Assembly (NCBI GenBank): GCA_944327105.1
Contig: CALVGN010000008.1
Location: 1 to 47,900, forward strand
DNA: 47,900 nt
Direction of reading: 5' to 3'
Source: an uncultured Erysipelotrichaceae bacterium
Lineage (GTDB): Bacteria; Bacillota_I; Bacilli_A; Erysipelotrichales; Erysipelotrichaceae
Positions within the stretch are counted from its first letter, which is position 1. The number at the start of each line of letters is the position of its first letter. The translations under genes were made by a program, and so were the position numbers. Under the pieces are notes generated by a model. That model searched no databases. It saw nothing but the letters and a program-made list of their open reading frames with translations, and was not told the DNA's origin. Below, piece by piece: positions 14,741 to 39,037 of the stretch.

Positions 14741-15601
14741 TTACTCCGTTAACCCCAATTGATCCAGTATCCGATTCAAATCATCCGTATCACTGTACTC
14801 GATGATCATACGTTTTTTGCTAACAACGACCTTCGTCTGCAATTTCGATTCGATCTGACGGGAAAGATCTTCCAGATACGGGTCGACCTCCGTCTCCTTT
14901 TTGCTTTTCGGTGAATTCAACGCTTTCACTTTGGCTTCCACTGCACGGGTGGATAGACCATTGGCCATGATTTCTTTGGCCAAAGGCACCTGTTGACTGG
15001 TGTCTTTCAAGCCCAAAAGCGCACGAGCGGTAGAATTGGATATTTGATTATCCATTACCCATTGCTGTACGGTTGGATCCAGTTTCAGCAGGCGTAGAAG
15101 GTTGGTCACATATTCACGGGATTTACCAACACGCTGGGCCACCTGTTCTTGTGTATAGCCTAAATGTTCCATCAATTTGGCATACCCATTCGCTTCTTCG
15201 ATCGCGGATAAATTTTCACGCTGGATATTTTCCAAAATAGCGATCTCCATCATTTCCGCATCGTTGAAATTGCGGATGATGGCAGGGATCGTGGTAAGAC
15301 CAGCCTTTTTGGCAGCGCGGAAACGGCGTTCACCGGCAATCAATTCATAATCGTTACCCACACCTTCGCGAACAAGGATCGGTGTAAAAACACCGTGTTG
15401 TTTGATGGATTGTGCCAGTTCATCAATGGCCGATTCATCAAAATGAGTTCGTGGTTGGTATGGGTTGATGCGGATACGATCTAACGGGATTTCACTGGTA
15501 TTATCGCTGGTGGCATTTTTTTGAATATCATCGATCAGGGAAACGACATCGACGTCTTCGCCAAAGATCGCGCCCAAGCCTTTGCCGAGTTTACGTGGCA
15601 T
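14741..15601 (-). CDS. parB: Chromosome partitioning protein ParB (Spo0J)
   Basis: A 286-residue CTP-dependent DNA clamp that loads at parS near the origin and recruits the condensin SMC. The start MPRKLGKGLGAIFG, the CTP-binding GERRFRAAKKAG and the helix-turn-helix region (YTQEQVAQRVGKSREYVTN) are all typical. The start overlaps the parA stop in TAATG, with GGAGG upstream, so translation is coupled. Its predicted sites, TGTTTCACGTGAAACA, occur at 25627 and 27010 in this window. Confidence 0.96.
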   Translation of the reverse strand: MPRKLGKGLGAIFGEDVDVVSLIDDIQKNATSDNTSEIPLDRIRINPYQPRTHFDESAIDELAQSIKQHGVFTPILVREGVGNDYELIAGERRFRAAKKAGLTTIPAIIRNFNDAEMMEIAILENIQRENLSAIEEANGYAKLMEHLGYTQEQVAQRVGKSREYVTNLLRLLKLDPTVQQWVMDNQISNSTARALLGLKDTSQQVPLAKEIMANGLSTRAVEAKVKALNSPKSKKETEVDPYLEDLSRQIESKLQTKVVVSKKRMIIEYSDTDDLNRILDQLGLTE

Positions 15602-16377
15602 TATTGCATTCCTCCATTGGCATCCAGCACTTCCTTGGCTAAACGCAAATAAGCTCTGGCGCCTTCACAATTGGTTTCATACTGGAAAATATCCTGGCCC
15701 ATGGACGGTGCTTCGGATAATTTGACGTTTCGGGGGATATACGCCTTATAGACTTTTTCTTTGAAATATTTACGTACATCCTGACTGACTTCCAAAGCCA
15801 GCGTGGTGCGGGAATCGTGCATGGTCAATAAAATCCCTTCGATGGTCAGATGCGGGTTGAATAATTTCTGGACCAGTCGAATGGTATTGAGCAATTGGTT
15901 CAACCCTTCCAATGCATAATATTCACACTGGACGGGGATCAGCGCACTATCGGCGGCGGTCAGTGCGTTGGTATTCAATAAACCCAAAGATGGGGGACAG
16001 TCGATGATGATGAAATCATAACGGTCTTTGACGGGTAATAATTTTTGTTTGAGCAATCGCTCGCTAGCAGTGGGCAGCTGGCTGATCTGAATATCGGCAC
16101 CGGAAAGATCGATGGATGCGGCGATCATGTCGATCTGCGGGATCGGCAAGGTGATCTTGACATCATCGACGCTGTCCGCACTTAACAGCAGTTCATAACT
16201 GGTTTTTTCAAATCCGACTTTGGATGCACCAATGCCGGTGGTGGCGTTGGCTTGTGGATCCAGATCGATCAATAATACTTTTTTTCCAAGATAACTCAAT
16301 GCAGCGGATAAATTGATGGAGGTGGTGGTTTTACCAACTCCGCCTTTTTGATTGGCAATGGCGATGATCTTTCCCAT
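15601..16377 (-). CDS. parA: Chromosome partitioning ATPase ParA (Soj)
   Basis: A 258-residue Walker-type ATPase that acts with ParB in origin segregation and regulates DnaA in Bacillus. The deviant Walker A KGGVGKTTTSINLS lies at residues 10-23, and DLDPQANAT and IIIDCPPSLGLL follow. GGAG precedes the ATG. It lies between noc and parB in one operon. Confidence 0.97.
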   Translation of the reverse strand: MGKIIAIANQKGGVGKTTTSINLSAALSYLGKKVLLIDLDPQANATTGIGASKVGFEKTSYELLLSADSVDDVKITLPIPQIDMIAASIDLSGADIQISQLPTASERLLKQKLLPVKDRYDFIIIDCPPSLGLLNTNALTAADSALIPVQCEYYALEGLNQLLNTIRLVQKLFNPHLTIEGILLTMHDSRTTLALEVSQDVRKYFKEKVYKAYIPRNVKLSEAPSMGQDIFQYETNCEGARAYLRLAKEVLDANGGMQ

Positions 16378-25626: not shown

Positions 25627-25642
25627 TGTTTCACGTGAAACA
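25627..25642. promoter_or_regulatory. parS site 1
   Basis: TGTTTCACGTGAAACA is the perfect 16-base Bacillus-type ParB recognition palindrome. It lies three bases beyond the serS stop codon and before the serS terminator, so it would be transcribed in the 3' untranslated region. It is about 13.5 kb from oriC. Confidence 0.95.
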
Positions 25643-25645
25643 TTT

Positions 25646-26938
25646 TTATTTAGTAGATGGAACCAACACCTTCTTGCCACCCATATACGGTTGCAATACT
25701 TCCGGGATCAGAATAGAACCATCAACCTGGTAGTTGTTTTCCAAAAATGCAATCAGCATTCGTGGCGGCGCCACCACCGTGTTATTAAGCGTGTGGGCAA
25801 AATATTTGCGCTTGTCATCTCCTTGAATGCGAATTTGCAGACGTCTAGCTTGTGCGTCGCCTAAGTTCGAACAAGATCCGACTTCGAAATATTTCTTTTG
25901 ACGAGGAGACCATGCTTCGACGTCACAAGATTTTACCTTCAAATCTGCCAAGTCTCCACTGCAGCATTCAATGGTTCGAACCGGAATATCCAATGTTCTA
26001 AAGAAATCCACTGTATTTTTCCACAACCGGTCATACCACATCATGGAATCTTCCGGCTTACAGACCACGATCATTTCTTGTTTTTCAAACTGATGGATTC
26101 GATAGACTCCCCGTTCTTCGATTCCGTGAGCACCGACTTCTTTACGGAAACATGGTGAATAGGAAGTTAATGTATACGGTAATACCTTTTCATCGATGAT
26201 CGTATCGATAAAACGACCGATCATTGAATGTTCACTGGTACCAATCAAATACAGATCTTCCCCTTCGATCTTGTACATCATATTGGTCATCTCATCGAAA
26301 GACATCACACCATTGACGACATCTCCATGAATCATAAACGGCGGAATCACATACGTAAATCCACGGTCGATCATGAAATCCCGGGCGTAAGTCAGAATCG
26401 CGGAATGGAGTCTAGCCACGTCCCCCATTAAATAATAGAAGCCGTTACCGCTGGTCTTTCGCGCACTGTCCAGATCAATTCCGTTCAGGCTTTCCATAAT
26501 GTCGACATGATAGGGAATTTCGTAGTCCGGGACAATCGGTTCCCCAAAACGTTCACGTTCGACATTTTCACTGTCATTTTTTCCGATTGGTACAGAAGGA
26601 TCGATTATGTTTGGAATAACCATCATGCGTTTTTTGATTTCGCTTTGATATTCCGCTTCAAGTTTCTCCAGTTCCTCCAAACGTGCAGCACCAGCTTTGA
26701 CTTCAGCTTTTACTGCTTCCGCTTCTTCTTTTTTGCCTTGCCCCATCAAAGCCCCAATCTGCTTGGATAGACTGTTCCGTTTCGCACGGATTTCATCCCC
26801 TTCTTTTTTGCTGGATCTGAATTTTTGATCCAATTCCAGCACTTCATCAACCAAAGGTAGTTTCTGATCCTCAAATTTTTTGCGGATGTTTTCTTTAACT
26901 AGCTCTGGATTGTCACGCAACAGTTGAATATCGATCAT
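25646..26938 (-). CDS. serS: Seryl-tRNA synthetase
   Basis: A 430-residue class II synthetase. It starts MIDIQLLRDNPELVKENIRK, with the long antiparallel coiled-coil arm (about residues 30-105), then the class II motifs, including YSPCFRKEVGAHG (motif 2). The start at 26938 is set by AAAGGAGG; the upstream extension of the frame lies inside the T-box leader. The leader, with specifier codon UCC, indicates induction by uncharged tRNA-Ser. The gene is flanked on both sides by perfect parS sites. Confidence 0.97.
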   Translation of the reverse strand: MIDIQLLRDNPELVKENIRKKFEDQKLPLVDEVLELDQKFRSSKKEGDEIRAKRNSLSKQIGALMGQGKKEEAEAVKAEVKAGAARLEELEKLEAEYQSEIKKRMMVIPNIIDPSVPIGKNDSENVERERFGEPIVPDYEIPYHVDIMESLNGIDLDSARKTSGNGFYYLMGDVARLHSAILTYARDFMIDRGFTYVIPPFMIHGDVVNGVMSFDEMTNMMYKIEGEDLYLIGTSEHSMIGRFIDTIIDEKVLPYTLTSYSPCFRKEVGAHGIEERGVYRIHQFEKQEMIVVCKPEDSMMWYDRLWKNTVDFFRTLDIPVRTIECCSGDLADLKVKSCDVEAWSPRQKKYFEVGSCSNLGDAQARRLQIRIQGDDKRKYFAHTLNNTVVAPPRMLIAFLENNYQVDGSILIPEVLQPYMGGKKVLVPSTK

Positions 26939-26955: not shown

Positions 26956-27172
26956 AAAAAAGAACCGCCAATTTGGGACGATTCCTCGTGTTGCCACCCA
27001 ATTTATGAATGTTTCACGTGAAACATTCATCACTCGTTTTGCGGATAACGGCCGCTGCCGAAATCTTTCGATTTGCTTTCCAAGGTGGATTCATTCACGG
27101 TATCGGCGTATTTTCACCAGCCATACGCTCTCTTCATCGCATCCTGTGAATTACTAACCTTTTCATCAAGCA
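26956..27172 (-). ncRNA. Serine T-box riboswitch in the serS leader
   Basis: On the minus strand Stem I runs from 27171 to 27075. It has a K-turn-like GAUGA/GGA loop, then AAGG/CCUU, then the specifier loop with AGUA on the 5' side and GAA-UCC-A on the 3' side. UCC (27089-27087) is a serine codon. A small GAAA-capped hairpin and GC-rich pairings follow. A perfect palindrome that is a parS site forms the next hairpin. The antiterminator motif GGGTGGCAACACG (about 26999-26987) has UGGC, which pairs with GCCA of tRNA-Ser (discriminator G). The terminator stem is at 26962-26984, ahead of a T-rich tract. Confidence 0.95.
27010..27025. promoter_or_regulatory. parS site 2, inside the serS T-box
   Basis: This is the perfect palindrome TGTTTCACGTGAAACA, extended by matching flanks to 26 bases (27005-27030). 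In RNA it forms the hairpin just upstream of the T-box antiterminator. It is about 12 kb from oriC. Confidence 0.95.
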
Positions 27173-27180
27173 AGAAAAGT

Positions 27181-37539: not shown

Positions 37540-37623
37540 TGTGGAAAGTGTGGAAAAGTGGTCAAACCATCGCATTTATCGGTGTTATTGATGTCGATAA
37601 AATCGTGGATAAATTGTGGAATC
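37540..37623. promoter_or_regulatory. Second DnaA-box cluster between dnaA and dnaN
   Basis: Four boxes on the minus strand: CTTTCCACA (37540-37548), TTTTCCACA (37549-37557), TTATCCACG (37604-37612) and a GATTCCACA-like box at 37615-37623 overlapping the dnaA stop. Together with the larger cluster upstream of dnaA this suggests a bipartite origin as in Bacillus. Confidence 0.75.
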
Positions 37624-39037
37624 ACGCCGTTTTGGGTTTGAGTTGCTTTTCCAGTTCATTGATGGCCATGGCATAAGCAGGATCCGTTTTGATCAATTTT
37701 TCCACTTTTGCGATGGAACTGATCACGGTGGAGTGGTCTTTACCACCGAATTCCGCTCCAATGCTGAGATAAGGCAGATCCATGAGTTTGCGGATCAGAT
37801 ACATGGAAATCTGTCGTGCTTTGGTGATTTCTTTGGTTCGGGTCTTGCTGGTGACCTGCTGTCGGGTCAAATTGTAATAATCTGCGACCGTAGTAATGAT
37901 CTTTTTGGGATTGATCCCAGAAGCATCCATGATCAACGGCTGACCTTTGAAACACGACATGGTGAAATGAATATCGACCGGGGTATCAGGATTAGCCTGA
38001 ATGATGCAGAATTGCAGCCGTTTCAAGGATCCTTCCAATGCACGTACATCTGAATTGAAGTTAGTTGCAAGGAATGCAATGGACTCATTATCGATATCTG
38101 TGGAGAATTCACTGCTACTTTGGTTCAGCTTCTTTTTTAAAATAGCGACACTGGTTTCAAATTCCGGGGAATCGATGCCAACTGTCAATCCTTGGCGAAA
38201 CCGGGAAATCAATCGGTCTTCGATTCCTTTGATTTCATTGGGCAAGCGATCCGAAACGACAATGATCTGCTTGTGGTTATTGATCAATTCGTTATAACAG
38301 TTAAAGAAAATCTCATGGCTTTTTTCTTTATTGGCCAGAAACTGGATATCATCCATCAGCAATACATCATAAGTGCGCAGTTGTTCTTTAAAGGCATCGA
38401 TGGTTCCTTTGCGAATGGATTCGGATACCGCTTCGACAAAATCCATAGTCGGAAGATAACAGACCCGTTTGGTCGGATCATTGGATAAGACGTAATTACC
38501 AACTGAACAAAGCAAATGCGTTTTTCCAAGACCGGAATTGCCATAAATAAAGAGTGGATTATAGAACCGACCGGGATTGTACGCACAAGCCAATGCAGCA
38601 GCATGACATTCCCGATTGCAGTCACCAACGACAAAATTTTCAAATGTATATTCGCTGGGTAAGGGCAAGCCAAGTTGGAAGGTCTCGTTTTGGGGTAAAG
38701 CGTGGGATTTCGAACTCAAAGCAGTGGGATGACGCATGGAGCGATAGTGCTCATAGTCACCTGGCGAATAGATGGAAAGTTGGGTTGTCGTATTGGATAA
38801 TTGTTGGATCGTGGATTCGATGATAGCTTTATGTTCTTCGATGATACTTTGACAAATCGCATTGGTCGCAATAATGATCGTATGGTCTTTATCCATATCA
38901 GCAATGACAAGGGATGGCACAAAAAAAGTATCGATGATCATTGAATCGATGTTGGTGTTGTTTTTGATTGTTTCAAATAATGTCGTTTGAAATGGTTGGA
39001 ATTGCGGAAAATCGCTTTGCGTATATATATTAGACAT
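37622..39037 (-). CDS. dnaA: Chromosomal replication initiator DnaA
   Basis: A 471-residue AAA+ initiator. Domain III starts about residue 130 with YTFENFVVGDCNR; Walker A is GNSGLGKTH, and LLMDDIQFLANKE carries Walker B. Domain IV has the DnaA signature GGKDHSTVISSIAK. Domain II is short. The start at 39037 is within 65 bases of the first upstream DnaA box; the Shine-Dalgarno is weak. An extended -10 (TGCTATTCT) is seen upstream on the minus strand. Confidence 0.97.
   Translation of the reverse strand: MSNIYTQSDFPQFQPFQTTLFETIKNNTNIDSMIIDTFFVPSLVIADMDKDHTIIIATNAICQSIIEEHKAIIESTIQQLSNTTTQLSIYSPGDYEHYRSMRHPTALSSKSHALPQNETFQLGLPLPSEYTFENFVVGDCNRECHAAALACAYNPGRFYNPLFIYGNSGLGKTHLLCSVGNYVLSNDPTKRVCYLPTMDFVEAVSESIRKGTIDAFKEQLRTYDVLLMDDIQFLANKEKSHEIFFNCYNELINNHKQIIVVSDRLPNEIKGIEDRLISRFRQGLTVGIDSPEFETSVAILKKKLNQSSSEFSTDIDNESIAFLATNFNSDVRALEGSLKRLQFCIIQANPDTPVDIHFTMSCFKGQPLIMDASGINPKKIITTVADYYNLTRQQVTSKTRTKEITKARQISMYLIRKLMDLPYLSIGAEFGGKDHSTVISSIAKVEKLIKTDPAYAMAINELEKQLKPKTA

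Follow-up and report, generated by a model that had tools for sequence, protein, structure and literature searches.

Can one short stretch of bases serve both as a chromosomal ParB-loading site in DNA and as a helix of a T-box riboswitch in RNA? The question is raised by the leader of serS in the window, the whole stretch of DNA that was analysed (47,900 nt), which is the oriC region of a 1.6-Mb genome. In the window, parB, parA and noc together span 14.7–17.2 kb, recR and dnaX lie at 22–25 kb, gyrA, gyrB and recF at 29.7–35.3 kb, and dnaN and dnaA at 36.4–39.0 kb. An earlier interpretation (the sequence-only reading) had proposed a perfect parS in an extended palindrome ahead of serS, and this is correct: the perfect 26-nt palindrome ATGAATGTTTCACGTGAAACATTCAT encloses parS TGTTTCACGTGAAACA as its inner 16 bases with no mismatches. 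The second perfect parS of the window, at the other end of serS, is missing from that account. The features are listed in Table 1.

Table 1. Positions in the window of the serS leader, its elements, the parS sites and the relevant genes
Feature	Position	Strand	Basis or remark
serS T-box leader (RF00230)	26971..27175	-	Rfam 112.9 bits, gathering 93, E 2.7e-24
T-box Stem III, perfect 26-nt palindrome AUGAAUGUUUCACGUGAAACAUUCAU	27005..27030	-	Rfam alignment; fold
Purine motif RRRxG (GAGUG), conserved	27031..27035	-	abuts Stem III on its 5' side; sequence; motif per PMC7583486
AA, conserved	27003..27004	-	abuts Stem III on its 3' side; sequence; PMC7583486
T-box sequence GGGUGGCAACACG, antiterminator 5' half, UGGC bulge	26987..26999	-	Rfam alignment
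Ser specifier UCC	~27089-27087	-	read from sequence, specifier loop aligned to consensus
Terminator form with U run	~26985-26953	-	read from sequence
Perfect parS TGTTTCACGTGAAACA, also T-box Stem III core	27010..27025	.	0 mismatches; comparative data
Second perfect parS, serS 3' UTR	25627..25642	.	3 nt past serS stop, ahead of a separate terminator hairpin
parB	14741..15601	-	ParB_N + HTH_ParB (Pfam); GKSR motif; parS-type Arg at Caulobacter position 173
parA/soj	15601..16377	-	Pfam
serS, seryl-tRNA synthetase	25646..26938 (start 26938, stop 25646)	-	Pfam Seryl_tRNA_N + tRNA-synt_2b; homologues
dnaA, oriC region marker	37622..39037	-	~11 kb from T-box parS

The leader, upstream of the Pfam-confirmed serS, was taken for a T-box in the sequence-only reading, and its covariance-model score exceeds the curated threshold (Table 1). 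It has the conserved T-box sequence and the antiterminator/terminator pair, and the specifier (UCC, Ser) agrees with the downstream gene. The palindrome, previously read as the hairpin before the antiterminator, is placed by the Rfam T-box alignment at Stem III, the hairpin directly 5' of the antiterminator. On the minus strand the order from 5' to 3' is GAGUG, AUGAAUGUUUCACGUGAAACAUUCAU and AA, shortly followed by GGGUGGCAACACG, with Stem III lying between RRRxG and AA. Stem III is reported to be indispensable for aminoacylation sensing, with RRRxG...AA as its conserved part (PMC7583486).

As a chromosomal parS, the site agrees in all 16 bases with the published palindromic consensus TGTTNCACGTGAAACA (PMC7022226), lies 11 kb from dnaA and occurs in a genome with ParA and a parS-type ParB. 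The window ParB keeps the parS-type arginine (Arg173, GKSR motif; residue key in PMC7383237) and has a serine at the position of Caulobacter Gly201, which was reported as invariant (PMC7383237). Besides the two parS sites flanking serS, the source genome has no site with fewer than two mismatches. Dinucleotide shuffles of the window give 0.42 parS matches even when three mismatches are allowed, so the perfect sites are not due to chance.

To see how widely the arrangement recurs, parS followed within 0–30 nt by GGGTGG was searched for in 295 genomes of the order (Erysipelotrichales), using the reversed pattern as control. The pattern matches in 96 genomes and the control in none (0 in 295/295); together with the shuffles, this rules out a chance match as the explanation for parS at serS. 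In the family (Erysipelotrichaceae), 105 serS leaders were read, with serS fetched by protein so as not to select for parS. A parS-like Stem III is found in 38 of the 88 serS T-boxes and in 19 of 56 sampled genera, each sampled genus uniformly having or lacking the overlap. The distance of Stem III to parS is bimodal, either parS (0–3 mismatches) or unrelated (5 or more): there are 29 T-boxes with no mismatch, five with one, three with two, one with three, none with four, one with five and 49 with six or more. The superposition of parS on Stem III is real, and it is conserved.

Class-wide sampling added five further families with a parS Stem III (f7, f10, f13, f18 and f25), six in total, and brought in a second SerS type that is only 33–35% identical. 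The two SerS types form a mosaic over the families of the class, and parS Stem III occurs with both. An Rfam T-box was confirmed at 11 of 12 sampled parS-type loci, across the two types. On the SerS tree (FastTree), the overlap requires at least 12 changes, though a tree of another marker might give a different number; it is retained almost without exception in one clade of about 15 genera. A scan of 84,980 species gave 103 exact instances, of which 98 were checked as serS, four are at contig ends and one is a chance match in Actinomycetales (L191); this chance match aside, no parS was found in the T-box of any gene but serS in the scan. Named species with the overlap include Holdemania filiformis, Bulleidia extructa, Erysipelothrix inopinata and Lactimicrobium massiliense. 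Distance from the origin is mostly not the cause of its absence in some relatives, as genomes with and without the overlap alike have serS close to dnaA. In one close relative (L036, genus g55), Stem III lacks parS, and perfect parS sites are located at −293 and just past serS; this suggests that parS may have been relocated inside the serS locus.

The inventory of parS in the family is small and centred on serS. The 116 family genomes contain 156 perfect parS (0–3 per genome), and in the genomes with serS read, 84 of 150 are at −400 to +300 of serS. In seven genomes the sole perfect parS is Stem III. Six of these have at least one further site with one or two mismatches, the nearest lying at serS or no more than about 2.5 kb away; only G136 has none. 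In both G136 and G630, Stem III is the only site within two mismatches of parS. The nearest further parS sites in G114 and G150 are symmetric variants, and in the closed genome G319 Stem III is the only TGTTNCACGTGNAACA. The distance between serS and dnaA was checked in 20 genomes. It is 8.5–20 kb in 18 of them, 44 kb in G207 and 117 kb in G191, and serS stays near dnaA even with parB hundreds of kilobases away (G207, G105).

The 3' side of serS is a second parS location in the family, with 49 perfect parS from just inside the serS end to 300 nt beyond; in 25 cases the site is at the end of the coding sequence or no more than about 10 nt from it. In seven loci (L057, L093, L099, L107, L115, L117 and L119), outer pairs lengthen the 3'-flank parS and a T run comes after it; such a parS may also be an intrinsic terminator hairpin of serS, a second RNA use. 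Nine T-box leaders (L049, L054, L057, L062, L080, L088, L099, L116 and L126) have little or no Stem III hairpin despite its reported indispensability, and their genomes carry parS or near-parS, often two, in the serS 3' flank. In L133 and L137 (genus g44; G167:C22:118195-118210 and G125:C33:97886-97901), serS itself contains a one-mismatch parS, TGTTCCACGTGAAACA, within its coding sequence.

A first explanation for the overlap would be regulatory coupling. ParB bound at the leader or sliding from it would lower serS transcription by acting as a roadblock or by local silencing, polymerase crossing the site would alter ParB loading, or both, and serine supply or post-replication gene dosage would thereby be tied to segregation. 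In P. aeruginosa, ParB at the parS upstream of PA0011 and PA0013 represses both genes, and a single parS is described in a review as tuning comCDE in S. pneumoniae (PMC7022226). RNA polymerase crosses the leader parS at every initiation, since transcription covers the leader whether it then terminates or reads through, whatever the tRNA charging, whereas the frequent post-gene parS is transcribed solely on readthrough. However, the precedents elsewhere are selective and modest, and several relatives have parS only 3' of serS or a few kilobases off. The sequence-only reading had expected the stem of relatives to match parS; in about half of the family serS T-boxes it does not. The T-box therefore does not need parS, neither function needs the overlap, and coupling is probably not essential, while dual use where parS is present is not refuted. 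We regard coupling as the reason for the overlap as a tentative possibility, on the unlikely side. A mutual influence of ParB and serS expression is a plausible hypothesis. A full regulatory junction, in which ParB loading and serS transcription would control each other and serine or tRNA charging would be coupled to segregation via one 26-bp element, we consider doubtful; if it were true, in some species the coupling would run through the only centromere site of the chromosome.

Two constraints can be separated on these bases. Under RNA pairing alone, the loop would be free to drift, and paired stem bases would change together at any position. Outside the parS core, 95, 97, 89 and 74% of leaders form the pairs at positions 9, 10, 11 and 12 from the centre, compared with 52, 75, 48 and 41% expected from the column make-up, and AT, TA, GC and CG are used as alternatives. 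At the control sites, 131 further parS of these loci, the same pairs are formed in 75, 56, 53 and 48%. The outer stem is thus under RNA-level constraint, as these pairs are formed above expectation via alternative pairs where ParB specificity should not matter. The parS hairpin is folded in 42 of 48 parS-type leaders; the exceptions include leaders of f10 and g16, in which a shifted partner gives a longer stem. The RRRxG-stem-AA frame surrounds the extended palindrome in 26 of the 48 under a strict ungapped rule. If Stem III were decaying or dispensable and the palindrome merely a transcribed parS, covariation of the outer pairs well above both expectation and the control sites would be hard to explain, as would the Rfam T-box scores of the sampled leaders and the published requirement for Stem III in aminoacylation sensing (PMC7583486). 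Genera g4, g9, g12 and g14, whose T-boxes have little or no Stem III, fit such a decay, which we nevertheless judge very improbable for the parS-type leaders.

The core behaves differently from the outer stem. The unpaired RNA loop ACGT, the centre of parS, is fixed in 47 of the 48 parS-type leaders; across 42 parS-free stems of the family, the loop takes 34 different forms and the inner stem 35. Symmetric changes that keep the pair occur in the family solely at the fourth pair from the centre (C-G, A-T), the pair that corresponds to the N of the consensus (PMC7022226). In G276, TGTTACACGTGTAACA is present in Stem III and at both other sites, all three being identical. L040 and L063 have a one-sided core change that breaks the RNA pair and retains 15 of the 16 parS bases. 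The check suggested in the sequence-only reading, whether the core is kept more strictly than pairing needs, is positive. The fixed loop, the symmetric changes solely at N, the matching variants within one genome and the one-sided changes place the parS core under DNA-level constraint. Invariance inside one clade could partly reflect shared descent, though the flanks have diverged there and SerS identity falls to about 68%.

The same observations bear on whether conservation could be due to RNA only, through descent or a sequence-specific role of the RNA, the parS match being incidental and not used by ParB. The region does fold and align as a normal Stem III, and the stem of one clade without parS is likewise rather constant (ATCTTA/TAAGAT). 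Such a reading would, however, have to account for the invariant loop and one-sided changes, for symmetric changes solely at the known degenerate position of parS with variants matched elsewhere in the genome, for separate occurrences in six families, and for genomes without another perfect parS, when the chance expectation of a perfect parS is far below one per genome; it is scarcely credible. That the palindrome is an operator through which another factor with a CACGTG core regulates serS is exceedingly improbable, for although it lies just downstream of the promoter region and has few copies in some genomes, it follows the exact parS consensus including the single degenerate position, its copies occur 3' of serS and up to a few kilobases away, nearly always near dnaA, parA and parB are present, and in the species scan no other T-box gene has the arrangement.

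Our preferred explanation, which we hold to be very probable, is that the 16 bp load ParB as DNA and, once transcribed, form a functional Stem III of the serS T-box. The two separable constraints seen in the comparisons argue strongly for the proposal in the sequence-only reading that the same bases would be both DNA centromere site and RNA stem. We infer that ParB loads at the leader in the cell and that the parS-type T-box regulates normally. Stem III would require a hairpin of suitable size between the fixed purine motifs, with the sequence of stem and loop free, and because of this freedom a palindromic DNA site could stand in for it cheaply. serS lies about 10–20 kb from oriC, a zone where centromere sites would be selected, and a transcribed palindromic parS would fold into an acceptable Stem III, combining both functions in one element. 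ParB would then hold the parS sequence at the DNA level and the T-box the base pairs beyond parS at the RNA level. The overlap would have been fixed more than once and then retained over long periods.

No prior report of such an overlap was found in the literature searched, which omits most subscription papers, and a riboswitch-embedded bacterial centromere conserved over many genera and six families appears to be undescribed. It would be a clear natural case of two unrelated codes, protein–DNA recognition and RNA folding, in the same bases, with constraints separable by position. The same 16 bases would act in both chromosome inheritance and amino-acid sensing across a large group of bacteria from the gut and the environment. 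Species with a single transcribed parS would offer a direct test system for the long-standing question of transcription versus ParB loading.

The P. aeruginosa PA0011/PA0013 intergenic parS and the S. pneumoniae comCDE parS resemble the serS site in that parS is near a promoter and a regulated gene; they differ in that parS there belongs to no RNA structure and that ParB effects were measured, whereas the serS case is built on sequence comparison (PMC7022226). Compared with the chromosomal parS of ParABS centromeres (TGTTNCACGTGAAACA), the site is alike in being a perfect 16-bp match about 11 kb from dnaA, with parA and parB in the window and few copies per genome, and unlike in lying inside a riboswitch, of which it supplies one helix, and in being the only parS in some genomes. 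As in other serS T-boxes (RF00230), the serS leader has Stem I, the Ser specifier, Stem II, Stem III, the antiterminator and the terminator form; Stem III, which is normally variable, is here fixed as a predicted ParB site, loop included. parS sites also occur within genes, for example in spo0J of B. subtilis. There, as at serS, a DNA segregation site overlaps another code, but the second code in spo0J is protein, and in the serS leader it is RNA secondary structure.
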